From Desulfuromonas sp. TF (lineage in GTDB: Bacteria > Desulfobacterota > Desulfuromonadia > Desulfuromonadales > ATBO01): a DNA stretch of 32,023 nucleotides. The stretch covers positions 24,727 through 56,749 of the forward strand of contig NZ_KI421426.1 in NCBI RefSeq assembly GCF_000472285.1, given 5' to 3'. Below are positions 7,614 to 32,023 of the stretch, one piece after another. Under the pieces are notes generated by a model, which worked only from the letters and a program-made list of their open reading frames with translations, ran no database searches and was not told the DNA's origin. The translations under genes and the position numbers were made by a program. Each line of letters opens with the position of its first letter. Within the stretch, counting starts at the first letter, position 1.

Positions 7614-10061
7614 ATGCAAAAAGAACTACGATGGAGATGGCTGCCGCTGCTCCTGCTCGCCGTGGCGGTGCTGCTGCCCGGTTGCAGCAGCGACAGCGAC
7701 AACGACCATACCCCGGCTTCGGCGGAACCGGCGGTGGAACAGAACTTCGCCACCAGCCTGCACAGCACCCGCGCCGGAAAGGACACCTGGTACAACGATG
7801 AGACCGGCTTCGGCTCGGTCGTCGACATCGCCTACGCCGACCTGCCCTGTGCCGGTTGCCACAACAAGGCGGCCTGGGAGGATGCCGGCAAGAGCTACGA
7901 CGGAGCGAACTGCCTCGACTGTCATCAGGCCGAAGCCGGCGACGCGGTGGCGATGCCGGACACCTGCTACGGCTGTCACAGTCGGCAGAAGACCGAGATC
8001 GCCCTGGGCATGACGGACGTCCACACCGATGATGTGGACGACAACGGCGACGGGACGGTGGACGCGCTCGGCTGCATGGACTGCCACTCCTCCGGCGACG
8101 TGCACGGCGACGGAACCGCGTATGACAGCATGCTCGCTCCCGGCGCCGTCGACGCCAATTGTGCGAACTGCCACGAATCCACCGAACTGGCGAATTCAAA
8201 CGACTACCATAACGACACCCACATGGATGCCATCGACTGCTCGGCCTGCCATATGGAGAGCGTCATCACCTGCTACAACTGCCACTTCGACAATGAGGCC
8301 ATCGGCGATGGCAGCGTGCTTCACGCCAAGTTCGCCAGCGCGAAATTCGGCGGTCCCGGCGAGAAATCCTGGCGCTTCCTGGTCAACCGGGTCATCGACC
8401 AGGAGGGCAACACCAAAATATTCCCCGGCAGCATGCAGTCGCTGATGGCCGACGTGACTGCGATCGGTGACGGGCAGGATGATGGCGGGGGCAAAACCTT
8501 CGTCGGCATCGGCCCCTACTACAGCCACGCCATCAAGAAAAACGCCATCACCTGCCAGGACTGCCACGCCAGCGCCGCCCTGCAGCAGTATGTGGATACG
8601 GGCTCGGTCGACGTGGTCAAGTGGAACGGCGCCGATGGGGAGGTCGTTCCCGCAGCGGAGATGGGCGCCAAGTGGCAGGCGCCCAAGGGCGTCATCCCGG
8701 TCCCGCCCGACTACGCTGAGGCTCTCCATTTCGAATTCGTAGACCTGGTCGATCCGGCCGCGCCGCTGAATGCGGCCGGCACCTCCACGAGTGCCCGCGT
8801 GGCGTTCAAGCGGCAAGCGGATGAGATTCATCTGCTCGACAAATACGTCAAGCCGCTCACGGCGGAGCAGATGGCCCGTCTCGGTTTCTTCTCCTCCAGC
8901 CTTCATGCCACCCGCAAGGGGAAGGAGACCTGGTATGCCGACGGTATGGGAGATGTCTCGCCGGCCGCCCTGCAGCAGGGCTTCGGAAACTTCGTCGACG
9001 TCCCCTATGCCGACCTGCCCTGCGCCGGCTGTCATAATGGGACGGATAACGGCCCCTGGGACGCCGACCCTGCCGAGGGCGTAGTTAACGACAGCTGGCC
9101 CGGCAACCCGGTCTGCACCGACTGCCATAGCTCCAGGAATCCGGCCGCCGACCCGGCGGTCGCCGCCGCCACCTGTTACGGCTGCCACAGCCGCCAGGCC
9201 AAGGAAAACACCTTGGGCATGGCCAACGTGCACGCGGCTTTCGAATGCTCTGCCTGCCATGGGTTCAGCGACATGCACGGCGACGGCACCGGGAAGGCCA
9301 CCATGTTTGAGGCGGGCGCCTTAACCGCCGACTGCCAAAGCTGCCACGGGGTGCCCGAGTTGACCGCCGGAGACGGCGGCGTTCACCAGGACGCACACTC
9401 TATCCACGCCGGCTCGGTGGACTGCTCGGCCTGTCACATGGAAAGCGCCATCGCCTGCTATAACTGTCATTTCGACAACGAGGCGGACAACCACCAGAAG
9501 TTCGCCAGCGGCTTCTTCGGCGGAAGTATCGAAAGCGGCAAGTCCTGGCGCTTCCTGGTCAATCGGGTCATGCCGGATGGCGGAACCAAGGTCTTCCCCG
9601 GCTCCATGCAGTCGCTGATGGCCGATGTCCACTCCGCCGATTTCCCGGGTGACGACGAGCAGGGCGTGAGCTTCGTCGGCATCGGCCCCTACTTCGCCCA
9701 CGCCGTCATGCCGAAGGGGCAGACCCTGGGTTGCGCCGATTGCCATGCCACGGCCAAGGCCATCGCCCTCGCTTCGGGAGCCGCCGTCGACGTGGTGCGG
9801 GATGCGAACCAGGACGGCGCCTGGGATATCATCCCGCAGGGGGTGATCCCGGTGCCTGAGGACCCGTCGCTCTTGACGATGGACTTCGTCGATCTGGTCG
9901 ATCCCGGGGCGAACGCCGCCAGCGCCCGCAAGTTCTTCAAGTCCGGCGCGGATATCGTCCATATGCCGGAGGACTACGTGCGCCCCCTCAATGCCACCCA
10001 GCTCGACATGCTGAGCAACGGCTGCGCCGGCTGCCACCCGAACACCATCCCCGGCTTGTAA
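7614..10061 (+). CDS. Seventeen-haem c-type cytochrome lipoprotein with duplicated octahaem modules
   Basis: The 815-residue protein has a lipoprotein signal (LLPGC lipobox, Cys24), so it is probably exported and lipid-anchored. I count 17 CXXCH motifs: eight in about residues 46-420, eight in about 424-795, and one near the end in GCAGCHPN. The two halves align motif for motif, sharing CSACHMES, CYNCHFDNEA, KSWRFLVNRV and FPGSMQSLMADV, and each ends in a YV(K/R)PL segment. This indicates an internal tandem duplication. Such cytochromes typically carry electrons across the periplasm or outer surface to extracellular acceptors; the specific partner is not evident. An AAGGAGG site precedes the ATG, a strong terminator follows, and no other gene shares the transcript. 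I do not recognise a named homologue. Confidence 0.93.
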   Translation: MQKELRWRWLPLLLLAVAVLLPGCSSDSDNDHTPASAEPAVEQNFATSLHSTRAGKDTWYNDETGFGSVVDIAYADLPCAGCHNKAAWEDAGKSYDGANCLDCHQAEAGDAVAMPDTCYGCHSRQKTEIALGMTDVHTDDVDDNGDGTVDALGCMDCHSSGDVHGDGTAYDSMLAPGAVDANCANCHESTELANSNDYHNDTHMDAIDCSACHMESVITCYNCHFDNEAIGDGSVLHAKFASAKFGGPGEKSWRFLVNRVIDQEGNTKIFPGSMQSLMADVTAIGDGQDDGGGKTFVGIGPYYSHAIKKNAITCQDCHASAALQQYVDTGSVDVVKWNGADGEVVPAAEMGAKWQAPKGVIPVPPDYAEALHFEFVDLVDPAAPLNAAGTSTSARVAFKRQADEIHLLDKYVKPLTAEQMARLGFFSSSLHATRKGKETWYADGMGDVSPAALQQGFGNFVDVPYADLPCAGCHNGTDNGPWDADPAEGVVNDSWPGNPVCTDCHSSRNPAADPAVAAATCYGCHSRQAKENTLGMANVHAAFECSACHGFSDMHGDGTGKATMFEAGALTADCQSCHGVPELTAGDGGVHQDAHSIHAGSVDCSACHMESAIACYNCHFDNEADNHQKFASGFFGGSIESGKSWRFLVNRVMPDGGTKVFPGSMQSLMADVHSADFPGDDEQGVSFVGIGPYFAHAVMPKGQTLGCADCHATAKAIALASGAAVDVVRDANQDGAWDIIPQGVIPVPEDPSLLTMDFVDLVDPGANAASARKFFKSGADIVHMPEDYVRPLNATQLDMLSNGCAGCHPNTIPGL

Positions 10062-10267: not shown

Positions 10268-12763
10268 ATGAAACTTGAAGACGTCCTCCCCCGGGTCAGC
10301 CGCCCTTCCCGCTATCTGGGAGGGGAGCTCGGGAGCCTGCGGAAAGATCCGGCGCAGGTCGATATCAACTTCGCCCTGGCCTTTCCCGATGTTTACGAAG
10401 TGGGGATGAGCCATCTCGGCTTCGCCATTCTCTACCATGTCCTGAACGGTCTGGAGGGGGTCGCCGCCGAGCGCGTCTACGCCCCCTGGCCCGACATGGA
10501 GGAGCACCTGCGCTCCAGCGGCGCCCCGCTCGTCTCCCTGGAGTCGGAACGGCCTCTGGGAGAATTCGACATTATCGGCTTCACCCTGCAGTACGAACTT
10601 TCCTACAGCAACATTCTCAACATGCTCGATATGGCCGGGGTCCCCCGCCGTCGCCGGGAACGCGATGAGAGCGCTCCCCTGGTGGTGGTCGGCGGTCCCT
10701 GCGCCTTCAATCCGGAACCGCTCGCCGATTTCATCGACTGCGCGGTGATCGGCGACGGAGAGGAAGCGGTGGTCGAGCTGTGCGAGGCGGTGCGCGCCGG
10801 CCGTGCGGCCGGGGAATCCCGGGAGCGCCTTCTCGAGCGCCTGGCCGCCATCGATGGTATCTATGTGCCTTCCCTCTTTGCCGTTGACTATCAGGAGGAT
10901 GGGCGCCTGGCCGCGATCCGTCCCCTCAAAGAAGGTTATGACCGCGTCCGGCGGCGTTTCCTGGCCGACCTCGACGCCGCCCATTATCCGACCTCTCCCA
11001 TCGTCCCTTTCATGAACACCGTTCACGACCGGGTTTCGGTGGAGATCGCCCGGGGGTGCACCCGCGGCTGCCGCTTCTGCCAGGCCGGCTACATTTACCG
11101 CCCGGTCCGCGAGCGCTCGCCGCAGCGCATCTCCGATATCATCGAGGAGTCGCTCGAGCGTTCGGGATACGAGGAGGTTTCACTCCTCTCCCTTTCCACG
11201 GGCGATTACGGCTGCATCGAGCCGCTGCTCAAGGGTCTGATGGCACGCTACGCCCGGGAGAAGGTGGCCATCTCCTTTCCCAGCCTGCGGGTCGGTTCGC
11301 TGACTCCGGAACTGATGGAGGAGATCAAGAAAGTCCGCAAGACCGGCTTCACCCTGGCTCCGGAGGCGGGAACCGAGCGTCTCCGCCAGGTGGTCAACAA
11401 GGGGATCACCGAGGAGGACCTGCTCGAGGCGACCCGCGCCGCCTTTACCCTGGGCTGGCGGGTGATCAAGCTCTACTTCATGATGGGCCTGCCCACGGAA
11501 ACCGAAGACGATCTGGCGGCCATCATCGAACTGACCTCCCGGGTCAAATATACCGGCAAGGGGACCGAGGGGGGAGCGGATGTCAACGCCTCCGTCTCCA
11601 CCTTCGTTCCCAAGGCCCACACCCCCTTCCAGTGGGAAGCCCAGCTCTCCATCGAGCAGACCCTTCAGCGGCAGGCTTTCCTTCGCGACGGGCTGAAGAA
11701 AAAGAAGCTGCGCCTCAAGTGGCACGAAGCCAGCCTTTCCTTCCTGGAGGGGGTCTTCGCCCGGGGCGACCGCCGTCTCGGAGCCGTCCTGGAGAAGGCC
11801 GTCGATCTCGGCTGCCGCTTCGACGGCTGGAGGGACCACTTCGACTTTGCCCGCTGGAAGGAGGCCTTCGAGGCCTTCGGCATCGATCCTGCCTGGTACC
11901 TGCGGGAGCGGAGCGAGGAGGAGGTCCTGCCCTGGGATCATATCGACTGCGGGATCCCCAAGGAATTTTTCCGCGCCGAGCGCCGCCGTGCCCTGGCCGG
12001 AGCCTACACCCCCGACTGCCGCTCCGGCGACTGCAGCGGCTGCGGCCTGTGCGATTTCGAGGAACTGCGCATGCGCCTGATCGAACGCGGCGAGCTGTCC
12101 CTGCCGGCCCCGGAACAGACGGAACTGCCGGGCGAGGAAGAGCGCTGCAAGGTGCGGGTGCGCCTGCGCAAGGATGGCAAGGCCCGCTTCGTGGGGCATC
12201 TGGAATTCATGACGGTCGTTCACCGGGCGGCCCGCCGGGCCCGCCTTCCGGTTCGCTTCTCCGCCGGGTTTCACCCCCAGCCGCGGATATCCTTCCCCGA
12301 TGCGCTCCCCACGGGGGTGGAGAGCGATGCCGAGATCATCGACCTGGAACTTTTCCGGCCGCGCAGCGCCCGTGAAATCGTCGAGGCGCTCAACGAACAG
12401 CTGCCGGAGGGGTTCAAGGTTCTGGAGGGGGCCTCACTCCCCTGGCAAAGTCCCTCTCCCTCTGTTAGCATTAAAGAGGTTCTTTACCGGGTGGGCCTGC
12501 CGCCGGAGACGCCGGAGGACCTGGACCGGCGCCTGGAGGATTTTCTGACCGCCAGCGAGGTTCTGGTCGGGCGCGACAAGGGCGGAAAGAGGGTGAGCGT
12601 CGACCTTCGCCCGGACGTCATCGGCCTCGAACAGGCCGACGGCGACCTGCTGCTGACCATGGTCAAGGGGAGTCCGACCCTGCTGGCCGCGCACCTGCTC
12701 GGATTGACCGTGGAGGGAGCGCGCTCCCTGCGCATCCGCAAGACGGCGGTGGTGCTCGGGTAG
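10268..12763 (+). CDS. B12-binding-domain radical SAM protein fused to DUF2344 (TIGR03960/TIGR03936 type)
   Basis: This 831-residue fusion has an N-terminal region resembling a cobalamin-binding domain (about 1-200). The radical SAM core carries the cluster motif C264-x3-C268-x2-C271 in RGCTRGCRFCQAG. A cysteine-rich stretch (DCRSGDCSGCGLCDF) follows near residues 580-595. The C-terminal DUF2344 domain starts near residue 625, with KARFVGHLEFM and FSAGFHPQPRISF. In many bacteria this fusion lies directly before rng, as here. The substrate of the family is not established to my knowledge; RNA or ribosome-related modification has been suggested by context only. No strong Shine-Dalgarno is visible, only a purine-rich GGAAGAAGAAA farther upstream. 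Confidence 0.92.
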   Translation: MKLEDVLPRVSRPSRYLGGELGSLRKDPAQVDINFALAFPDVYEVGMSHLGFAILYHVLNGLEGVAAERVYAPWPDMEEHLRSSGAPLVSLESERPLGEFDIIGFTLQYELSYSNILNMLDMAGVPRRRRERDESAPLVVVGGPCAFNPEPLADFIDCAVIGDGEEAVVELCEAVRAGRAAGESRERLLERLAAIDGIYVPSLFAVDYQEDGRLAAIRPLKEGYDRVRRRFLADLDAAHYPTSPIVPFMNTVHDRVSVEIARGCTRGCRFCQAGYIYRPVRERSPQRISDIIEESLERSGYEEVSLLSLSTGDYGCIEPLLKGLMARYAREKVAISFPSLRVGSLTPELMEEIKKVRKTGFTLAPEAGTERLRQVVNKGITEEDLLEATRAAFTLGWRVIKLYFMMGLPTETEDDLAAIIELTSRVKYTGKGTEGGADVNASVSTFVPKAHTPFQWEAQLSIEQTLQRQAFLRDGLKKKKLRLKWHEASLSFLEGVFARGDRRLGAVLEKAVDLGCRFDGWRDHFDFARWKEAFEAFGIDPAWYLRERSEEEVLPWDHIDCGIPKEFFRAERRRALAGAYTPDCRSGDCSGCGLCDFEELRMRLIERGELSLPAPEQTELPGEEERCKVRVRLRKDGKARFVGHLEFMTVVHRAARRARLPVRFSAGFHPQPRISFPDALPTGVESDAEIIDLELFRPRSAREIVEALNEQLPEGFKVLEGASLPWQSPSPSVSIKEVLYRVGLPPETPEDLDRRLEDFLTASEVLVGRDKGGKRVSVDLRPDVIGLEQADGDLLLTMVKGSPTLLAAHLLGLTVEGARSLRIRKTAVVLG

Positions 12764-12853: not shown

Positions 12854-14362
12854 ATGACCAAAAAACTGGTCATCAACACCACCTCCCACGAAACCCGCGT
12901 GGCGCTGCTGGAGAACGGCCATATTGCCGAACTCTCTATCGAGCGGACGCGGGAGCGGGGGATTGTGGGCAACATCTACAAGGGAAAGGTGATCCGGGTT
13001 CTTCCCGGGATGCAGGCGGCCTTCGTCGACATCGGTCTGGAGAAGGCTGCGTTTCTCTATGTCGCCGACGTTCTGGACGAAATGGAGGCCGTGGAGCAGT
13101 TCATCGACGGTGGAAATTCTCCGGCCAACCTCGCCGAGCTGACTGAAGAGCATCCGCCCCTGCCCCCCATTGAGGAGCTTCTGCAGGAAGGGCAGGAACT
13201 GCTGGTGCAGGTGGCCAAGGAGCCGATCGGAACGAAGGGGGCCCGCATCACCTCGCACATTTCCCTGCCGGGGCGCAATCTCGTTTTCATGCCGACCGTC
13301 GATCATGTGGGGATCTCCCGCCGCATCGAGCAGGAGGAGGAGAAAGACCGCCTGCGGCAGATCGTCGAGCGGATCCGTCCGGCGGGGACCGGGTTTATCG
13401 TGCGCACCGCCGCCGAGGGCAAAAGCGAGGACGACATGCGCACCGACATGGACTTTCTGGTCGGGCTGTGGCAGTCCATCGCCGCGCGCAGGGAGGGGAA
13501 GGGGGCGCCGAGCCTGATTCACTCGGACCTGGATGTGACCAGCAAGGTGCTGCGGGATACCCTGACCGAAGAGGTGGAGCGGATCGTGGTCGATTCCCGG
13601 GAGGAATACGACAAGATCGTCCGCTTCATCGGCACCTTCATGCCGCACCTCAAATACGCCATCGAACTGTATGAAGACGACGAGCCGATCTTTGACGCCT
13701 TCGGACTCGAAGTGGAGATCTCCCGGGCCCTGGGGCGCAAGGTCTGGCTCAAGAGCGGCGGCTACATCATCATCGAGCAGACTGAGGCCCTGACCGCCAT
13801 CGACGTCAATACCGGCCGCTTCGTGGGCAAGCACAACCTCGAGGACACCATCTTCAAGACCAACCTGGAAGCGGTCAAGGAGATCGCCTTTCAGCTGCGG
13901 CTGCGCAACATCGGCGGGCTGATCATCATCGACTTCATCGACATGGAGAAGGAGGCGAATCGGGAGCGGGTCCACTCGTCTCTGGAGGAGGCGCTCAAGA
14001 GCGATAAGAGCAAGACCAATATCCTCAAGATCTCCGAGCTCGGGCTGGTGGAGATGACCCGCAAGCGGGTGCGGGAGAGCATCGGCCGGACCCTCTGCGA
14101 GCCCTGCCCGTACTGCGAGGGGAAGGGGACCGTCAAGAGCCGCACCACCATGGCATACGAGATCTTCCGCGATCTGCGCCGGGAAATCGGATCCCTCCCC
14201 GGCTACCGCCTCACCCTCCTGGTCCATCCCGACATCGCCGCGCTCCTCGGCGACGAGGAGCGGCCCGGCATCGAGGAGCTGGAGCGGCGCTTCGAAAAAC
14301 AGATCGCCGTCACCGCCCGCCCCACCTTTCATATCGAGCAGTTTGAGATCATGGTGGGGTGA
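12854..14362 (+). CDS. rng: Ribonuclease G/E family endoribonuclease
   Basis: The 502-residue protein has the RNase E/G catalytic architecture without the long C-terminal scaffold of RNase E, so RNase G is the better name. An S1-like RNA-binding region covers about residues 35-120 (GIVGNIYKGKVIRVLPGMQ). Metal-binding aspartates lie in TAIDVNTGRF and IIIDFIDM, and the Zn-link cysteines in CEPCPYCEGKG. The enzyme cleaves single-stranded RNA in rRNA maturation and mRNA decay. GGAGG precedes the ATG with 4 intervening bases, and the 90-bp gap after the radical SAM gene is AT-rich and may hold a separate promoter. The last 12 codons are repeated at 19761-19796, making the 3' end a candidate integration site. 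The usual rplU-rpmA genes do not follow. Confidence 0.95.
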   Translation: MTKKLVINTTSHETRVALLENGHIAELSIERTRERGIVGNIYKGKVIRVLPGMQAAFVDIGLEKAAFLYVADVLDEMEAVEQFIDGGNSPANLAELTEEHPPLPPIEELLQEGQELLVQVAKEPIGTKGARITSHISLPGRNLVFMPTVDHVGISRRIEQEEEKDRLRQIVERIRPAGTGFIVRTAAEGKSEDDMRTDMDFLVGLWQSIAARREGKGAPSLIHSDLDVTSKVLRDTLTEEVERIVVDSREEYDKIVRFIGTFMPHLKYAIELYEDDEPIFDAFGLEVEISRALGRKVWLKSGGYIIIEQTEALTAIDVNTGRFVGKHNLEDTIFKTNLEAVKEIAFQLRLRNIGGLIIIDFIDMEKEANRERVHSSLEEALKSDKSKTNILKISELGLVEMTRKRVRESIGRTLCEPCPYCEGKGTVKSRTTMAYEIFRDLRREIGSLPGYRLTLLVHPDIAALLGDEERPGIEELERRFEKQIAVTARPTFHIEQFEIMVG

Positions 14363-14363
14363 G
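14327..14363 (+). repeat. Left direct repeat (rng 3' end, candidate attL)
   Basis: These 37 bp cover the last codons (FHIEQFEIMVG), the stop codon and one further base of rng. They match 19761-19796 with one deleted base and two substitutions. The gene remains intact on this side. Confidence 0.8.
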
Positions 14364-14402
14364 GGACGATCGGCGGACTGCATCCCCCGACATCGCCAGA
14401 GA

Positions 14403-14448
14403 AAAAAAGGACAGGCTACTTTTCGATACAAGTAGCCTGTCCTTTTTT
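14403..14448 (+). terminator. Strong terminator after rng
   Basis: A perfect 14-bp inverted repeat (AGGACAGGCTACTT and AAGTAGCCTGTCCT, 14408-14443) around 8 bases is flanked by A-runs and T-runs. It should terminate rng and could work in both directions. It lies inside the repeat-bounded segment, so it may have arrived with the island. The bases from 14449 to 14561 are AT-rich with no ORF; a short TTTCA/TGAAA repeat sits at 14458-14473. Confidence 0.92.
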
Positions 14449-14561
14449 GTTCTTTAATTTCACTTCACTGAAATTTTTATTGATGGTAGTCTGCTCAAAC
14501 TGAATTGTTGAGGTCTAATCCGCAATAGAAACGCCGAGGACATGGGTGATGTCAGGGAGAT

Positions 14562-14933
14562 ATGAACCTGATCGTCGGAGACATCCTGACCCGCAAAGAG
14601 CTCGCAGATGCAGTTGGAGCCGGCGGGGATAGCTGTCTTCTGCACAAGAATTCCGTTGTCGTCGCCATCGCGCTGAATCCTGATAAAAACCCGGATTCTC
14701 CCCATGTCCTCCTCGTGGGAAAGGGGCCGCACAAAGAGCGATATGCAAGGTCTTTTCTTGACTCTGCCGCGTCTGTTCCGACTTTCATCAAGAAGGCCGC
14801 GGATCAATGGCAATATATGGGGATGTTCCGAGGAATAAGTCTGGATCATTCCCCCGCCTCGATAAAGGCGCATGCTGCAAAATCAGGCCGAAGAGACATT
14901 TGGGGTGTCCTCTCGCTGAGCCTGAATAATTAA
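14562..14933 (+). CDS. Small protein upstream of McrBC, possibly PUA/SRA-like
   Basis: This 123-residue product starts MNLIVGDILTRKELADAVG and ends DIWGVLSLSLNN. The pattern of an N-terminal GDILTRKEL element, a beta-rich centre (SVVVAIALNP, HVLLVGKGPH) and WQYMGMFRG suggests a compact beta-barrel fold of the PUA/SRA type seen in modified-base readers. That is a weak visual resemblance, not a firm assignment. An in-frame TGA five codons upstream makes 14562 the only ATG start, with GGGAG rather close to it. It ends 45 bp before the McrB-like gene on the same strand, so it may be a specificity subunit or a fragment of a larger McrA-like gene. Frames on the other strand here look like shadows. 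Confidence 0.6.
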   Translation: MNLIVGDILTRKELADAVGAGGDSCLLHKNSVVVAIALNPDKNPDSPHVLLVGKGPHKERYARSFLDSAASVPTFIKKAADQWQYMGMFRGISLDHSPASIKAHAAKSGRRDIWGVLSLSLNN

Positions 14934-14978
14934 GATAATCTTAGTGACTAGTTGACTGCTAGGGAGGGAGTACATTAG

Positions 14979-17201
14979 ATGCCTGAAGACCTTCGTCTCG
15001 ATCTGCAGAAGTCGTATGCCGCGATTTTGGAAGCTGCTCGGAAACAACAGTTCCTCTCCTATGGGGATCTGGCTGCCGCAAACAATATGCCATGGTCTCA
15101 GGCCCGGCGCCGAATGCCGCAGCACCTGGGGCAACTTGTAACCATCGCCCATGAGCGCGGTTGGCCGATGCCGAGTGCCATCGTCGTCAGCAGGGAAAGT
15201 GTTCCAACAGGGCTGCTCGAAGGTGGTGCTCTTGAGGGGTTTCTTGCCGCCGCCAGGGATGTTGGACATGACATAAAAGACCCCCAGGCCTTCGTCCGGG
15301 AACAGCAGGAGAAGGTCTTCAAATGGGCGGATGCCGCACCCGAGAAACTGGATCTTCAGGGGACAACATCCGAGGAAAAACAGAAAAAGGCCGGACCACG
15401 ATTTGTCACCTATTTCGCTCCAGTTCTAGATGCTCTTCGGGAGTTGGGCGGAGAGGCCAAGCCGGCGGATGTTCTCGATTGGATTTCGAGCCATATCGAG
15501 GTTCCCCAGGCGGAGATCGAAGGGGTCAACAAGAGCGGACAGACCAAATTCGAAAACAAGGTGGCGTGGGCACGCTTTTACCTCTCCAAAGCTGGGTTAA
15601 TCGATCCCAGCAAATACGGAATCTGGAAATTAACGGAGGCCGGACGTGAGACCTCTCTCGACCATGCTCAAGCACTGGCAATTTATAAGGATATACATTC
15701 CAGCTATAAGGATAGTGATGAGGATGAGCCCGCGCCTGAGTCGGTCAATGCTGCCACGGAGCTATTAAAAGACACCAGTCGACAGTTCTGGTTTGCCGGA
15801 GCCGTTTGGGGCGAAGAGGACCAACTTAATCGTTTCCGCCGGGAGGGTGTCTGGCAGAATGGCTACGATGATAAATTTTCTAACTTGGTAGAGAGGATGA
15901 AGGCCGGCGATCGCATTGCCATCAAGGCATCCTTTGTTCAAAAACACAACCTGCCGTTCAGTGTGGGTGGCAAGGCGGTCTCATGTATGCGAATCAAGGC
16001 AACCGGCACGATCACGGAGAATATGGGAGACGGTTCGACCGTTCGGGTGCATTGGGACCCGCCATCATCCCCGAAGGACTGGTATTTTTATACCTATAGA
16101 ACAACGCTGGTCGAGGCAGATCCCGATGATGACCTGGCGAGGAGATTGGTTCTGTTCACCTTTGCCGATGCCCCGCAGGATTATGATTTCTGGCTGAAGG
16201 TCCCTTACTTTGCAAAAAGGTATTCAGGGGCATACGAGGAGACCGGCGCAGCCAATGATGACTTGATCGTCGCCGAAGAGGTTTCGACCTCGGTTACGGC
16301 TGCTCCGACATATTCGATTGATACCATCATCGCCGAAGGTTGTTTTCTCCCCAAGCTTGCGCTGGAGGCAGTGCTTTCCCGACTCTCGGAAAAGAAAAAC
16401 TTGATCCTTCAAGGTCCCCCGGGAACAGGCAAGACTTGGCTCGCCAAGCGACTCGGATATGCGCTTCTCGGCTCGAAAGACCGCAAGATCATCCGGTCAC
16501 GTCTGCGCACAGTGCAGTTCCACCCTTCACTCTCCTACGAGGATTTCATACGTGGTTGGCGCCCCCAGAACGGGGGCGGTCTGAAACTCGTGGATGGAGT
16601 TTTCCTTGAGGCGGTTCAGGCCTCTGCCAGTGAGCCGGATCTGCCCTTCGTCTTCATCATCGAAGAGATCAATCGGGGCAATCCCGCCCAAGTTTTTGGG
16701 GAAATGCTGACTCTTCTCGAGGACGGCAAGCGGAAGTCTGAAGAAGCCCTTGAACTTGCCTACCCCCGCGGAATGGATGAGCGGATCCATATTCCCCCGA
16801 ATCTTCACGTGATTGGGACGATGAATATCGCGGACCGCTCCCTGGCGCTTGTCGACCTGGCACTCCGACGGAGGTTCGCCTTTATCACCCTAGAGCCCCA
16901 GCTTGGGGAGTCATGGAGTCAATGGTGTCAGACGCAGGGCGGTCTCGATCTTGATGCGATTTCCCTCATCCAGGAGCGAATGACAGAATTGAACAAGGAG
17001 ATCGAGAACGACCGCACCCTCGGTCCGCAGTTCCGAGTCGGACATAGTTTCGTGACCCCCTTAAGGAACATTTCCAAGCCCCGCACCTGGTTCCGGCAGG
17101 TCGTAGAAACCGAGATCGCCCCCTTGCTGGAAGAGTATTGGTTCGACGCCATTCAGAAGGCGGTCGAAGCAAAAGGACGCCTTCTGTCGGGCCTCGAATG
17201 A
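14979..17201 (+). CDS. mcrB: McrB-type AAA+ GTPase subunit with composite N-terminal domains
   Basis: This 740-residue protein is the motor subunit of a McrBC-type modification-dependent restriction system. Residues 1-115 form a small helical domain (SYGDLAAANNMPWSQ, PMPSAIVVSRES) that recalls a family of small defence-associated proteins. About 140-225 resembles the Mrr N-terminal winged helix (KVAWARFYLSKAGLI, YGIWKLTEAG). About 268-395 looks like a PUA/EVE-like reader (QFWFAGAVWGEEDQ, GVWQNGY, WYFYTYRTT). The AAA+ domain follows: Walker A GPPGTGKT (479-486), Walker B FVFIIEEINRGN (from 557), and the McrB hallmark MNIADRS (615-621). GGGAGGGAG lies 8 bases before the ATG. The stop overlaps mcrC in an ATGA. 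The three-part N-terminus is unlike the classical E. coli McrB DNA-binding domain. Confidence 0.92.
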   Translation: MPEDLRLDLQKSYAAILEAARKQQFLSYGDLAAANNMPWSQARRRMPQHLGQLVTIAHERGWPMPSAIVVSRESVPTGLLEGGALEGFLAAARDVGHDIKDPQAFVREQQEKVFKWADAAPEKLDLQGTTSEEKQKKAGPRFVTYFAPVLDALRELGGEAKPADVLDWISSHIEVPQAEIEGVNKSGQTKFENKVAWARFYLSKAGLIDPSKYGIWKLTEAGRETSLDHAQALAIYKDIHSSYKDSDEDEPAPESVNAATELLKDTSRQFWFAGAVWGEEDQLNRFRREGVWQNGYDDKFSNLVERMKAGDRIAIKASFVQKHNLPFSVGGKAVSCMRIKATGTITENMGDGSTVRVHWDPPSSPKDWYFYTYRTTLVEADPDDDLARRLVLFTFADAPQDYDFWLKVPYFAKRYSGAYEETGAANDDLIVAEEVSTSVTAAPTYSIDTIIAEGCFLPKLALEAVLSRLSEKKNLILQGPPGTGKTWLAKRLGYALLGSKDRKIIRSRLRTVQFHPSLSYEDFIRGWRPQNGGGLKLVDGVFLEAVQASASEPDLPFVFIIEEINRGNPAQVFGEMLTLLEDGKRKSEEALELAYPRGMDERIHIPPNLHVIGTMNIADRSLALVDLALRRRFAFITLEPQLGESWSQWCQTQGGLDLDAISLIQERMTELNKEIENDRTLGPQFRVGHSFVTPLRNISKPRTWFRQVVETEIAPLLEEYWFDAIQKAVEAKGRLLSGLE

Positions 17202-18301
17202 ATTTGGCGGCTACTACAGCAGAGCCGGACCAAGTCCACTTGGTCGGACGCATACCGGTACGGAACCTCTGGCTTTTGCTTCTCTACGCCTCGGACCTGG
17301 GGAAATTCTTCGGCAAGTTCGATGCGGAGGTGGAAGAGTCTCCCGACCTGCCAACCCTGATCGGCCGCCTTCTAGCGCATGCCGTGGAACACCGGCTAAG
17401 GCGAAATCTCAGTCGCGGTTACAAACAGAAGCAAGCAAACCTGAACCGGGTTCGTGGTCGAATCGACCTACTGGAGACCTTCTCGAAGGAGTTGTTGCAG
17501 AGGGGGCAGGTAGCTTGCCGGTTTGAAGAGCACACGATTGACACGCCGAGGAACCGGCTTGTGCGGGCCGCCTTGGATGCAGTTGCCAACAGAGTGGACG
17601 ATGACGTACTGGCTCACCGCTGTCGGATGCTTGCGGGGGACCTGGGGCGGCTAGGGGTCAGTGGCTGTCGCCCTTCTCGCAGCGAAATGATTTCTGACCA
17701 GATTGCCCGCCACGATTCCGAAGATCTGCTGATGGTGACCCTGTCGAGAATTGTGTTTGACCTCGTCCTCCCGACGGAGGATGAAGGGGATTATTCACTG
17801 TCCCGGTTTGCGAAAGACGAGGTGTTCGTCAGGAAGTTGTTTGAGAGAGCAGTTGGGAACTTCTACGCCTCAGAGCTTACACCTGATACCGGGTGGAAGG
17901 TTTACCAAGGTCAGCGGTTGGAATGGCCACTTGAACAGGCGAGCTCTGGCATTCCTGCAATCCTGCCAGGAATGAAGACCGATATCGTTCTCGAGAATCG
18001 AAAAGCCCGCCGACGGATCGTCATCGATACGAAGTTCACCGGAATCTTTGCCAGCACAGCTTATCGCGCGGCAGTTTTAAAGAGCGGGTACATTTATCAG
18101 ATTTATGCCTACTTGAGATCCCAAGAGGATAACGAATTCGGCAAGAATGCTGAAGGCATGCTTCTTCACCCGGCCATTGGCAGAGATGTTGATGAAATCG
18201 TACAGATTCAGGGCCATAGAATAAGATTTGTGACAGTAGATTTAACAAAGAGATCCGATGCTATATTATCAAGATTGCGAAGTTTTCCATATAATATATA
18301 G
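17198..18301 (+). CDS. mcrC: McrC-family nuclease subunit
   Basis: This 367-residue protein is the nuclease partner of the McrB GTPase. An N-terminal McrC region contains IPVRNLWLLLLYAS and the RGRID motif (86-90). The C-terminal PD-(D/E)xK core shows Asp262 in KTDIVLEN and Asp277-x-Lys279 in VIDTKF. The frame is open upstream to 17138, but the ATG at 17198 overlaps the mcrB stop by 4 bp and places the family N-terminus correctly, so I chose it. Tight coupling supports subunit assembly. GC falls toward the 3' end, leading into the AT-rich next gene. The nucleolytic residues appear intact, so the system is probably active if the AAA+ partner is. Confidence 0.93.
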   Translation: MNLAATTAEPDQVHLVGRIPVRNLWLLLLYASDLGKFFGKFDAEVEESPDLPTLIGRLLAHAVEHRLRRNLSRGYKQKQANLNRVRGRIDLLETFSKELLQRGQVACRFEEHTIDTPRNRLVRAALDAVANRVDDDVLAHRCRMLAGDLGRLGVSGCRPSRSEMISDQIARHDSEDLLMVTLSRIVFDLVLPTEDEGDYSLSRFAKDEVFVRKLFERAVGNFYASELTPDTGWKVYQGQRLEWPLEQASSGIPAILPGMKTDIVLENRKARRRIVIDTKFTGIFASTAYRAAVLKSGYIYQIYAYLRSQEDNEFGKNAEGMLLHPAIGRDVDEIVQIQGHRIRFVTVDLTKRSDAILSRLRSFPYNI

Positions 18302-18327
18302 AATATTAAAAAATTAGGAGGTTTCTT

Positions 18328-19413
18328 GTGAAAGAATTTGCCTTGTATTATCCTTATATAGAATTTAATAGCCCTTCAAGGCTGAAATATCTTGCTTTAT
18401 TTTACGACAAAATATTTAGAATTGTCCCACCTCACTTTTTTCCCGTTGATCATCCAGAAATAATGGAACTCTTAGATAGTGGTGATATCGGAATTTCAAT
18501 TGATCCGACTGATTATTCTACTGAGGCTGGTGATAAATTTCTATGTAAATTGGAAAATTGGGACGCATCGGTCCTTCAAGATGCAATGACTGACGTTGAA
18601 GAACTCGAAAGAATTCACTACTCAAAAGCCGATGACCGTATAAGAAGTTTATTCCGGGATTTAGGGTGTTCAGAGGACGATACCTGGATCCACGTTCCAA
18701 AAAATTTAGCCTCAACTTATATGCTTTACTTGTCAAATGAGATAGCAAAGAAAAACAATTTGGGACTTGCAACCGATGATATGGATGCATGGACAGCTAT
18801 CAATTATTATGAAAGCGATGGAGCGTTTACCCACGACCCATGGGAGATATTTCACCAAGAGGACGAAGATTCTTCTGCCATAGTTCTTGCATCTTTGATG
18901 ATTGATAACATTGTCCCACTTAATATTTCTGAATTGGAGCCTAACAAAATAATCAAATTTAGGGAAAGAAGAAGAGATGAAATAAAGAGCTTTAGGTCCA
19001 CAATTAATAGCCTGAGTAATGAGTTGAAAAACTATGAAAATTTAGATATCAAGCTCGAAAAAGTTAAGTTAGCTATTGAAGATGTGAGAAGATCCGCGGA
19101 CGAATTTAGAAAAAGTGCAGATATTTTATCTGTATCAGGATGGTTTGGTGTTCAGTCCTTGGGTTTGCCTGTCCCTTTTTTAATTTCTCAAATGTTAGGA
19201 TTGGACTCTATTAGGCAACAGATTGTTTTGGCGACTGGTCTGTGCATGCATTCAATTTACACAATGTATAAATCAAAACAAGAACTTAAAGAACTTAGTG
19301 TAAGGTCGGGCTATTCCGCTTTGTACTGGATGGAACGGGATTTGACTCCTTCAAGGTTGGAACGTTTGGGAGAACGCAAATTTCGATCATTACACGAGTT
19401 CATGGATGACTGA
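18328..19413 (+). CDS. AT-rich hypothetical protein resembling DUF6236, third gene of the McrBC operon
   Basis: The 361-residue product begins KEFALYYPYIEF and RLKYLALFYDKIFRIVPP, which resembles the DUF6236 family (function unknown). A charged central region includes a likely coiled coil at about 207-265. A hydrophobic segment follows (VQSLGLPVPFLISQMLGL), which might bind membrane. The start is GTG with AGGAGG 6 bases before it. It follows mcrC after only 26 bp, so it is probably cotranscribed. Base composition is strikingly lower in GC than rng, the cytochrome or the efflux genes, which points to recent transfer. Its role could be as an accessory or regulator of McrBC, or as an independent defence gene; the sequence alone does not decide. 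Confidence 0.75.
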   Translation: MKEFALYYPYIEFNSPSRLKYLALFYDKIFRIVPPHFFPVDHPEIMELLDSGDIGISIDPTDYSTEAGDKFLCKLENWDASVLQDAMTDVEELERIHYSKADDRIRSLFRDLGCSEDDTWIHVPKNLASTYMLYLSNEIAKKNNLGLATDDMDAWTAINYYESDGAFTHDPWEIFHQEDEDSSAIVLASLMIDNIVPLNISELEPNKIIKFRERRRDEIKSFRSTINSLSNELKNYENLDIKLEKVKLAIEDVRRSADEFRKSADILSVSGWFGVQSLGLPVPFLISQMLGLDSIRQQIVLATGLCMHSIYTMYKSKQELKELSVRSGYSALYWMERDLTPSRLERLGERKFRSLHEFMDD

Positions 19414-19462
19414 TGATACTGCTTTTAGTGATTGGCTCCAAGCGCGCCGAATTACAGCAACA

Positions 19463-19750
19463 GGGGTCAAAGCAAGACTCGCGAGCGATACTCAAGCTGA
19501 TCAAGGAGGAAACGGGAAAAGATCTTGAAACATTGAAAAGCGAAAAAGGGGACCTTCGACGGCTGGCGACGGATCTGCTCTATCGGCATGGGGGGCTCAA
19601 AGGACGAGATAGGCGCGCTGTTTGGCATCGATTACAGTGCGGTGAGCCAAGAGCGGAAGCGGTTGCGGGAACGTATTGTCCAGGATCAAAAGCTGGAAGA
19701 GGTGATTTACAGACTGGATGACAGCTGTCAAACAATAAAGATTTGACCCT
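19463..19750 (+). mobile_element. Transposase-derived remnant bounded by a short inverted repeat
   Basis: GGGTCAAA (19464-19471) and TTTGACCC (19742-19749) form an 8-bp inverted repeat around the transposase-like coding remnant. REP-associated transposase (RAYT, Y1_Tnp) genes often sit between such imperfect palindromic ends. The catalytic part is missing, so the remnant cannot move by itself. Confidence 0.5.
19479..19746 (+). pseudogene. Frameshifted C-terminal remnant of a RAYT-type transposase
   Basis: Two frames carry one continuous pattern. The first reads ILKLIKEETGKDLE and RRLATDLLYRHGGLKG; the second continues DEIGALFGIDYSAVSQERK and RLRERIVQDQKLEEV to a TGA at 19744-19746. Joining them needs a single-base shift near 19600. 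The joined sequence resembles the DnaA-like helix-turn-helix tail appended to some REP-associated transposases. The N-terminal HUH catalytic part is absent, and I see no functional gene. Confidence 0.65.
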
Positions 19751-19760
19751 TTTGCTTGTG

Positions 19761-19796
19761 TTTCATATCGAGCAGTCGAGAACATGGTGGGGTGAG
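19761..19796 (+). repeat. Right direct repeat (decayed rng 3' end, candidate attR)
   Basis: These 36 bp repeat the rng tail at 14327-14363. Restoring one deleted base makes it read FHIEQFENMVG-stop, nearly identical to the intact FHIEQFEIMVG-stop. It has no coding context here and sits 31 bp before the DUF1330 gene. It is best explained as the displaced end of rng after an insertion. Confidence 0.75.
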
Positions 19797-19826
19797 AAGG
19801 AACGAATCAATATCAAGGGAGGAGAA

Positions 19827-20111
19827 ATGCCTGCATATCTCATCGGCCATATCACCGTCAAGGACCCGGTCCAGTGGGGCGTCTACGTGAAGGGGGTGCG
19901 CGAGTCGCTCCTCCCCTTCAATGGGCGGACCCTCTTTCGGGGAAAGCGCGCCTCCGTGCTGGCCGGTGAGCATCCCTATGATCTGGCCGTGGTCATCGAA
20001 TTCTCCGATCAGGAGTCCCTGCAGAGCTGGTACGACTCCGAGGAGTACCAGAAGTTGATCCCCATCCGGGACAGGGCCGCCGACGTGGCGATCATCAGCT
20101 ATGACGCATGA
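19827..20111 (+). CDS. DUF1330 family protein
   Basis: This 94-residue cytosolic protein shows the DUF1330 (dimeric alpha-beta barrel) pattern: PAYLIGHITVKDPVQW at the start, DLAVVIEFSDQESLQSWYDS in the middle and EYQKLIPIRDRAA near the end. The ATG follows GGGAGGAG closely; the frame is open further upstream, but the good ribosome-binding site and family N-terminus favour this start. It lies just beyond the right repeat, so it is probably the native downstream neighbour of rng before the island arrived. The biochemical function of the family is not established. Confidence 0.9.
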   Translation: MPAYLIGHITVKDPVQWGVYVKGVRESLLPFNGRTLFRGKRASVLAGEHPYDLAVVIEFSDQESLQSWYDSEEYQKLIPIRDRAADVAIISYDA

Positions 20112-20348
20112 GTCCCGCCTGCGAGGGACAATGTAAAAAATCCTGCCCTCGCTTGAACCCTGCCCGCATTCCCCCTCCGCTTCTTTCTTCGCCAAGGTAC
20201 GACCTTTCCGCAGGCGGAATCCATTTTTGACAGAACGCGATCTTTTTATAAAGCTGTTTTATTTTGCCGGGATTTGTAGTAGCGTTGCCTTATTGAATGG
20301 GCCCTGCCGCAGTGGTGCAGAGGGGGCAGGGGAAAAGGGAGCGATGAC

Positions 20349-21251
20349 GTGACACTACAAGCATCTGCAGCAACTTCAACGTGGGAATCGAATCGATACC
20401 AGCAGGTCGGGGTTCCGGGCTTGTTTGTTCTGCTTTGGAGCACGGGGTTCATCGGCGCAAAGTTCGGCCTCCCCTATGCCGAACCGCTGACGTTTCTGCT
20501 GTGGCGATACGGTTCAGTCACCCTGCTGTTCCTGGCTTTGACCCTGGTGCTCAGAGCCCCCTGGCCTGTCTCTCCCATGCAGTGGGTTCACATCGCCGTC
20601 TCGGGCCTGATGGTCAATGTCCTCTATATCGGCGGCGTATTCTGCGCCATTTATGAGGGGCTGCCGGCGGGAATCGTCTCGCTGATCGTCGGCCTTCAGC
20701 CGCTGTTCACCGCGGTCGTGGCCAGCCGGGTCCTGGGGGAGAAAGTCTACGGCCGGCAATGGGTCGGTTTTGTCCTTGGCCTGGCAGGCATGTTTCTGGT
20801 GCTGGGCGACAAGATTTCGTTCGCCGGCGGCAATAAGGTGGGGGTTGTGATGTCGCTGATCGCCCTGTTCGGCATGACGGCCGGCACTCTGTACCAGAAG
20901 CGGTTCTGCTGCGCCATGGACCTGCGCAGCGGGGCCGTCATCCAGTTTGGCGCCTCGACCCTGGTCCTGGCGCTCTGCGCCCCCCTGTTCGAAACCATGC
21001 AGGTTCAGTGGAGCGGCCGGTTCATCTTCGCCATGGCCTGGCTCGTCCTGGTTCTGTCGCTGGGCGCGATCAGCCTGCTCAACGTCCTGATCCGCAGGGG
21101 CGAGGCATCGAGGGTAGCCAGCCTGTTTTATCTGGTCCCGCCGGTCACGACCCTGCTCGCCTTCTTTATGTTCGGGGAACGGCTCGGCATAGCCGCCCTG
21201 TTGGGGATGGGCATCTCGGTGACGGGGGTGGCCCTGGCCATCAGGAGGTAG
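20349..21251 (+). CDS. DMT-superfamily transporter, EamA type
   Basis: The 300-residue protein has about ten hydrophobic segments in two EamA repeats: LFVLLWSTGFIGAKFG at the start of the first, and VVMSLIALFGMTAGTLYQKR at the start of the second. PLFTAVVASRVLGEKV and VTTLLAFFMFGERLG are typical conserved loop regions. It is an inner-membrane exporter of small metabolites such as amino acids; the substrate cannot be predicted. The start is GTG with GGGAG 7 bases before it; the nearby ATG at 20344 is stopped at once. A TTGACA lies at 20227-20232, but no well-spaced -10 follows. The gene ends 7 bp from the convergent M16 peptidase gene with no clear terminator. Confidence 0.9.
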   Translation: MTLQASAATSTWESNRYQQVGVPGLFVLLWSTGFIGAKFGLPYAEPLTFLLWRYGSVTLLFLALTLVLRAPWPVSPMQWVHIAVSGLMVNVLYIGGVFCAIYEGLPAGIVSLIVGLQPLFTAVVASRVLGEKVYGRQWVGFVLGLAGMFLVLGDKISFAGGNKVGVVMSLIALFGMTAGTLYQKRFCCAMDLRSGAVIQFGASTLVLALCAPLFETMQVQWSGRFIFAMAWLVLVLSLGAISLLNVLIRRGEASRVASLFYLVPPVTTLLAFFMFGERLGIAALLGMGISVTGVALAIRR

Positions 21252-31588: not shown

Positions 31589-31975
31589 CTATGATTCGTG
31601 CCGGAACACAGCGCCCCAGCAGCTTTCGACAATTCTGGCGATCCGGTCGTCGTTCAATATCCTTTCTGCCGCATTGAGGCGCATCGCCTGAATCACCGGT
31701 CCGCAGGCAACTGCCAACAGCATGTCTGGAGGCATGTTCCTGAACAGCTTCGTTTCAGTTCCTTCCCGAAAAAGATCGACAACGCTGCACAATTCAGCGG
31801 CAGGCGGTTCCTCCGGAATGCAGGTTTTCCGGAATGGCGAACTGTGAAACTGATCCATGAAGAGAAACTCTGCGGGGGAAAGCAGACAGTGCCATATCAG
31901 CCTCTGTGCCAGGTGTGAAAAGCGGTGCCGAATAGACGCGTGCGCTTTCAGTTCCTTCCCGAAAAAGATCGACAA
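31589..31975 (-). pseudogene. TetR-like regulator C-terminal part, disrupted by tandem duplication and window end
   Basis: The open minus-strand frame encodes up to 128 residues that look like the ligand-binding half of a TetR regulator: HRFSHLAQRLIWHCLLSPAE, EFLFMDQFHSSPF, and a C-terminal PPDMLLAVACGPVIQAMRL and WGAVF. The DNA-binding half is missing here. Upstream, a second copy of part of the gene (31946-32023) begins in a shifted frame, because the repeat period of 193 bp is not a multiple of three. The gene is either broken by a real duplication or misassembled at a contig end. Confidence 0.6.
31753..31830. repeat. First copy of a 78-bp direct repeat
   Basis: Identical to 31946-32023, where the window ends. 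The copy lies within the TetR-like coding frame (VVDLFREGTE region). Confidence 0.9.
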
Positions 31976-32023
31976 CGCTGCACAATTCAGCGGCAGGCGG
32001 TTCCTCCGGAATGCAGGTTTTCC
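31946..32023. repeat. Second copy of the 78-bp direct repeat, cut by the window end
   Basis: Identical over all 78 visible bases to 31753-31830, offset 193 bp. The repeat may continue past the window. The junction follows at 31945/31946. Confidence 0.9.

Follow-up and report, generated by a model that had tools for sequence, protein, structure and literature searches.

A direct repeat of the rng 3′ end around a predicted McrBC restriction cassette in Desulfuromonas sp. TF, most likely an insertion scar

In Desulfuromonas sp. TF, the 3′ end of rng, the gene for RNase G, recurs as a direct repeat of 36-37 nucleotides (nt) on the far side of a predicted type IV restriction (McrBC) cassette. The most economical reading of this arrangement, and the most likely one, is that the repeat is an insertion scar around the cassette. 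The locus lies within a 32,023-nt stretch of contig NZ_KI421426.1 (positions 24,727 to 56,749 of the forward strand, assembly GCF_000472285.1); this whole stretch is called the window, and its numbering is used unless another contig or locus is named. The gene and the two copies of its end are:

12854 to 14362, forward strand: rng, intact, encoding RNase G of 502 amino acids (aa); Pfam RNase_E_G and RNase_E_G_Thio, NCBIfam ribonuclease G
14327 to 14363, forward strand: left repeat copy, 37 nt, the final 12 codons of rng including the stop codon plus 1 nt
19761 to 19796, forward strand: right repeat copy, decayed, 36 nt

The stop codon of rng (TGA) occupies positions 14360-14362, the left copy extends 1 nt beyond it, and the gene is intact; its protein scores 585 bits with the NCBIfam ribonuclease G model, slightly below the cut-off of 594. 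The original prediction had described a recurrence of the rng tail at 19761-19796 that differs by one deleted base and two substitutions, and shuffled sequences and BLAST both bore this out. Comparison of the rng tail with the window downstream gave a local score of 30, against a maximum of 18 and a median of 12 in 1000 first-order Markov shuffles. When 37-mers taken every 12 nt along rng were compared with positions 14364-20400, the two best scores (21 and 16) belonged to segments overlapping the tail, and the next was 15. BLAST with the right-hand piece returned the rng tail at E 8.0e-7 and 92% identity. Extension of the homology beyond the stop codon raised the score merely from 30 to 31, and no rng sequence was found at the right copy outside the 37 nt. 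Direct repeats thus stand at both ends of the interval, one of them including the host gene's 3′ end, as is looked for in an integrative element. Across all 17 contigs of the genome (4.4 Mb), TTTCATATCGAGCAG, the first 15 nt of the repeat, occurs at 19 places with up to two mismatches. Three of these places match exactly, namely the two repeat copies and one site within a 645-aa reading frame on contig C3 which, judged by eye, resembles a polysaccharide-biosynthesis epimerase.

The repeat is beyond chance, as the shuffle scores exclude it, and an origin by chance or by faulty assembly is very improbable: the two copies differ by three changes, and positions 14000-20400 contain no N bases. The one point in favour of an artefact is a scaffold gap just past the end of the window, bordered by a suspicious repeat. 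There, a 78-nt exact direct repeat (31753-31830 and 31946-32023) abuts a scaffold gap of 10 N and is itself probably an assembly artefact.

A match to rng was present in all 58 genomes of a first search, and 110 rng loci were then available for comparison (30, one of which is that of this genome, plus 80), which left 100 distinct relatives once identical rng ends were merged. This genome is the sole member of its family among the 136 genomes of the order, and the closest rng protein in the relatives shares 87% identity. When the right copy was compared with the rng tails of all 110 loci (its own and 109 others), its own tail scored 29 and the next best 23. The right copy therefore probably arose in this lineage, after its split from the compared genomes.

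The original prediction placed McrBC genes, a DUF6236-like gene and a transposase remnant between the two copies, and all three were recovered by Pfam, NCBIfam and, for the remnant, DNA identity to an element in another genome. Additional to these are a gene for a 123-aa protein and a palindrome, the latter described below. The genes of the cassette are:

14562 to 14933, forward strand: gene for a small defence-associated protein of 123 aa, so described from the defence neighbours of its homologues
14979 to 17201, forward strand: gene for a McrB-like AAA protein of type IV restriction, 740 aa, with an Mrr_N domain at residues 142-225 (Pfam Mrr_N and AAA_5)
17198 to 18301, forward strand: mcrC, overlapping the end of mcrB (Pfam McrBC; NCBIfam NF007277, 376 bits, cut-off 338)
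18328 to 19413, forward strand: DUF6236 gene (Pfam PF19749, 36.9 bits, cut-off 26.2)

An mcrB-like AAA gene is followed by mcrC, and the cassette is, as predicted from its domains, type IV restriction of a known kind. It shares with described McrBC systems the mcrB-like gene and overlapping mcrC, the AAA domain and a McrC above the NCBIfam cut-off; it differs in its McrB, which lies far under the NCBIfam equivalog cut-off (234 bits, cut-off 637), in the Mrr_N domain and in the accompanying 123-aa protein. Among the 135 further genomes of the order, the cargo is either missing or represented by distant relatives only. McrB matches at E 1e-3 were found in 16 of the 136 genomes including this one (the best other match is partial, at 3e-37), and matches at 1e-80 in four of 395 genomes drawn from the phylum, again with this one included. 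Full-length relatives of McrB occur on plasmids, among them a Rhizobium plasmid protein whose gene has mcrC behind it (52% identity over 99%). The DUF6236 protein has a match in a single genome of the order, namely this one. Base composition changes along the interval, with a G+C content of 0.549 at 14501-18000 and 0.389 at 18001-19500, against 0.62-0.63 in the window flanks of the interval.

The 123-aa protein matched nothing in Pfam, PADLOC or NCBIfam, and homologues were found in only three of the 136 genomes, namely this one, G015 and G039. In G015 the homologue lies 30 nt behind the HsdR gene of a type I system, and G039 carries two copies amid genes that by eye look transposase-like. Three plasmid records also matched, and two were inspected: in the Massilia record the homologue adjoins SAVED, ThiF and nucleotidyltransferase genes, a set labelled CBASS-like here, and in the Azospirillum record DUF4007 and cysteine-desulfurase genes lie nearby. 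Judging from these neighbourhoods, the protein may serve several defence systems as a small accessory. Its loci are window 14562-14933, L147:9340-9714, L214 and L215.

The repeat is unique in the genome. The closeness of its right copy to the genome's own rng tail argues for an insertion, as does a cargo so rarely found in the order. A horizontally acquired type IV restriction cassette would have been inserted directly behind rng, comprising the small defence protein, McrB, McrC and the DUF6236 gene, the last of which has a different base composition and was perhaps a separate addition. The insertion would have duplicated the final 37 nt of rng, with the left copy completing the gene and the right copy, free of coding constraint, decaying. 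As the agent, a tyrosine recombinase that produced the duplication as attachment sites, its integrase being lost later, is narrowly favoured, although with less than even confidence. Such an enzyme would join a copy of the rng end carried by the element with the chromosomal one, yielding attL and attR. The integrase would have been lost afterwards, perhaps from 19414-19760, where a Y1 transposon landed and collapsed. Attachment sites in protein genes usually lie at the gene end, and integrative elements are found at the 3′ ends of protein genes such as trmE (SGI1) and guaA. It is this usual position that speaks for a recombinase, since the repeat stops one base beyond the rng stop codon without disrupting the gene. 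The original claim of site-specific integration is thus supported in part: an insertion scar is the likeliest reading, the site-specific mechanism is unproven, and an integrase-free pattern fits about equally.

The collapsed transposon is the feature nearest to the right copy, and the longest stretch of the interval that holds no intact gene adjoins that copy:

19463 to 19749, forward strand: internally deleted Y1 transposon, 81% DNA identity to an element of genome G019 whose protein matches Pfam Y1_Tnp

A relic of the left terminal repeat, GGGGTCAAA, stands at 19463, the 3′ part of the transposase gene occupies 19484-19746, and the right terminal repeat ends at about 19749, 11 nt short of the right rng-tail copy. 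The transposase remnant has no Pfam match of its own; its likeness to the Y1 (IS200-like) transposons of the order rests on the 81% identity to the 3′ part of the G019 element. Five relatives (L173-L177) carry terminal inverted repeats of 23-28 nt, whereas the window copy is internally deleted; in L173 the terminal repeat GGGGTCAAATCTTTATTGTTGACAA is perfect over 25 nt and the protein matches Pfam Y1_Tnp. In the Y1 family of the order, the distance from start codon to right-end motif was 983 nt in all five copies compared. Insertion sequences produce target duplications of 2-14 nt. The rng repeat was accordingly rejected as a target duplication of the transposon, being too long at 37 nt and separated by 11 nt from the end of the element.

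Several observations weigh against integration by a tyrosine recombinase. A six-frame genome search with PF00589 gave eight matches in seven frames, all of them away from this contig, in agreement with the original remark that no integrase is present. The tail-like sequence (up to two mismatches) nearest to any of the seven tyrosine recombinases is 24 kb off, and no integrase was found within the element, nor one elsewhere in the genome that shares its attachment sequence. No second rng tail was detected in the 89 distinct relatives that have 1 kb or more of downstream sequence, 47 of which have 5 kb or more; the best score was 15. None of the 110 rng loci, queried with the seven tyrosine recombinases of this genome, carries a recombinase at the rng end; no further element was found at this site, and three rng-tail patterns had no exact match in viral contigs. 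Without a second tail or an rng-end integrase, recurrent use of the rng end for attachment is not demonstrated, and the original expectation of other cargo with recombinase genes at this site was disappointed. The single integrase seen behind rng, in a Geobacter metagenome-assembled genome (L099, Pfam Phage_integrase), was rejected as an rng-end element: a tRNA-Ser gene (12065-12150 of that locus) intervenes, adjoins the integrase and is its likelier target.

Other searches bear on the same subject. No serine recombinase appeared when the five main open reading frames of the interval were scanned with Pfam, and no genome-wide search was aimed at serine recombinases. A degenerate tail pattern with up to three mismatches matched one site each in 51 of the 136 genomes, although the pattern is blind to copies with insertions or deletions and missed the right copy here. 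Viral contigs yielded no relatives of either rng or McrC in searches that reach close relatives only, and a phage collection gave one 21-nt match at E 0.3.

Two features of the surroundings also tell against a simple integration, and they bring in a further explanation. The first is rplU, the commonest neighbour of rng, which lies no more than 500 nt behind it in 36 of 94 testable relatives. Across all 100 relatives it is found within 500 nt in those 36 and at 0.5-10 kb in 20, was not seen in the DNA covered in 38, and could not be scored in six for shortness; in 17 of the 29 closest relatives it lies within 130 nt. In this genome rplU is on another contig (C1:461585, L041), preceded by a GAF/sigma-54 activator gene, and the locus has therefore probably been rearranged as well. 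The second feature is the palindrome behind rng:

14403 to 14448, no strand assigned: palindrome followed by a T-run, terminator-like (z -6.7), of a dispersed palindromic repeat family

A second copy lies at C15:13003-13058 in this genome, and related palindromes (L217-L225) occur in nine others, giving at least 10 of the 136 genomes, a lower bound because only part of the candidates was scored. The palindrome could be the native terminator of rng, in which case 14363 would not mark the left edge of the insertion; since its family is resident in the order, the left flank may be partly native or a later insertion. The dispersed form reads GGGACAGGCTACTTTT...AAAAGTAGCCTGTCCC and is perhaps a transposon-derived miniature element. 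Its likeness to two joined terminal repeats suggests Y1-derived debris; its termini were found in none of the six Y1-type elements compared.

Both features would suit an explanation in which a duplication with deletion, or else one-sided homologous recombination, left part of a second rng 3′ end as the right copy, with the cassette arriving separately. The event would date to the separation of a radical-SAM gene and rng from rplU, so that the lost adjacency and the order-typical palindrome in the left flank, placed as a native terminator might be, would both be accounted for. This explanation is nevertheless improbable. The absence of rng sequence past the 37 nt at the right copy speaks against it, the genome encodes just one further rng-like protein, a 38% paralogue on contig C4, and rplU adjacency is missing from so many relatives that its loss here is no special event.

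The absence of a recombinase is in keeping with another mechanism. Restriction-modification (RM) insertions with long target duplication were reportedly described by Nobusato (2000) and Furuta (2010). Under an integrase-free insertion of this type, a staggered break or illegitimate recombination would have been repaired with duplication of the 37 nt, and no recombinase would ever have been present. This is a serious possibility, ranked second after the recombinase; the weights given to the two are a matter of judgement and were not computed. Restriction genes do lie between direct repeats of some tens of bases with no recombinase on the contig, the repeat may be the target sequence, and the separation of rng from rplU supplies a probable rearrangement nearby. 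In the passages cited from PMC3874152, some RM systems insert with long, variable target duplications on the order of 100 bp, and extensive rearrangements often accompany their movement; a passage of PMC3031569 adds that genome comparison suggested insertion of this kind for all RM system types. McrBC itself is argued to act as a mobile unit in a passage of PMC2614495, and passages of PMC1643837 and PMC4978471 also concern restriction-gene insertion with long target duplication. However, the one repeat in hand measures 37 nt, below that order of size, McrBC is type IV, for which the cited passages name no such duplication, and an integrase-free origin makes the end of the repeat 1 nt past the stop codon a coincidence.

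To the right of the interval, the first gene is:

19827 to 20111, forward strand: DUF1330 gene, outside the interval, 30 nt past the right copy (Pfam PF07045)

It had been proposed that related strains would have rng directly followed by this gene; this arrangement was found in none of the 100 distinct relatives (91 with at least 500 nt covered downstream, nine with less), and rng-DUF1330 was rejected as an old gene order. Behind rng in the other 109 loci, of which many cover only about 1.5 kb, neither a DUF1330 nor an EamA gene was seen. Of 58 genomes, 11 including this one have a DUF1330 match, and in the 10 others it is on a separate contig from rng or 1.7 Mb distant.

In 18 relatives in which the next gene is not rplU, or rplU is farther away, the open reading frames behind rng were read by eye only. 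They are chiefly host-like genes, with Y1-type transposase-like proteins in L050, L064, L076, L077 and L088. A few of these neighbourhoods contain defence-like genes, again by eye and without a tail repeat: CRISPR-Cas-like genes about 5.2-9.9 kb behind rng in L088, a nucleotidyltransferase/HEPN-like pair 0.1-0.9 kb behind it in L058, and a P-loop ATPase with a KAP-like look in L062. Elsewhere in the window, positions 7614-10061 encode a multihaem cytochrome c protein (Pfam Cytochrome_C7 and Cytochrom_c3_2) of two repeated halves, whose DNA repeats are 80-89% identical and spaced about 1.17 kb apart.

The original prediction held that the rng 3′ end is not a described attachment site, and the literature searched, outside subscription papers, agreed, with no relevant report of rng, cafA or RNase G as an attachment or integration site or in connection with a genomic island. 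With islands at the 3′ ends of protein genes, the locus has in common short direct repeats at both ends, one of which restores the gene end, and accessory cargo; in contrast to them it has no integrase, no second rng example and no empty site among the relatives compared. With RM insertions that duplicate a long target, in the cited passages, it shares restriction cargo, a direct repeat of the presumed target, the lack of a recombinase and a probable nearby rearrangement, but the cargo is type IV McrBC rather than a methylase-endonuclease pair and the repeat is merely 37 nt. A bolder proposition, rated as rather unlikely, is that either the rng 3′ end is an attachment site unreported in the literature searched, or the McrBC cassette needs no recombinase to move and duplicates a core gene's end in doing so.

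At present the case consists of one locus and one scar. An empty site in relatives would establish either a new attachment site in a protein gene or a clear instance of McrBC spread by recombinase-free target duplication, a route for restriction genes whose mechanism the cited passages leave open. If the latter is true, the 37-nt scar behind rng would be the mark of defence genes spreading by a route that needs no transposase.

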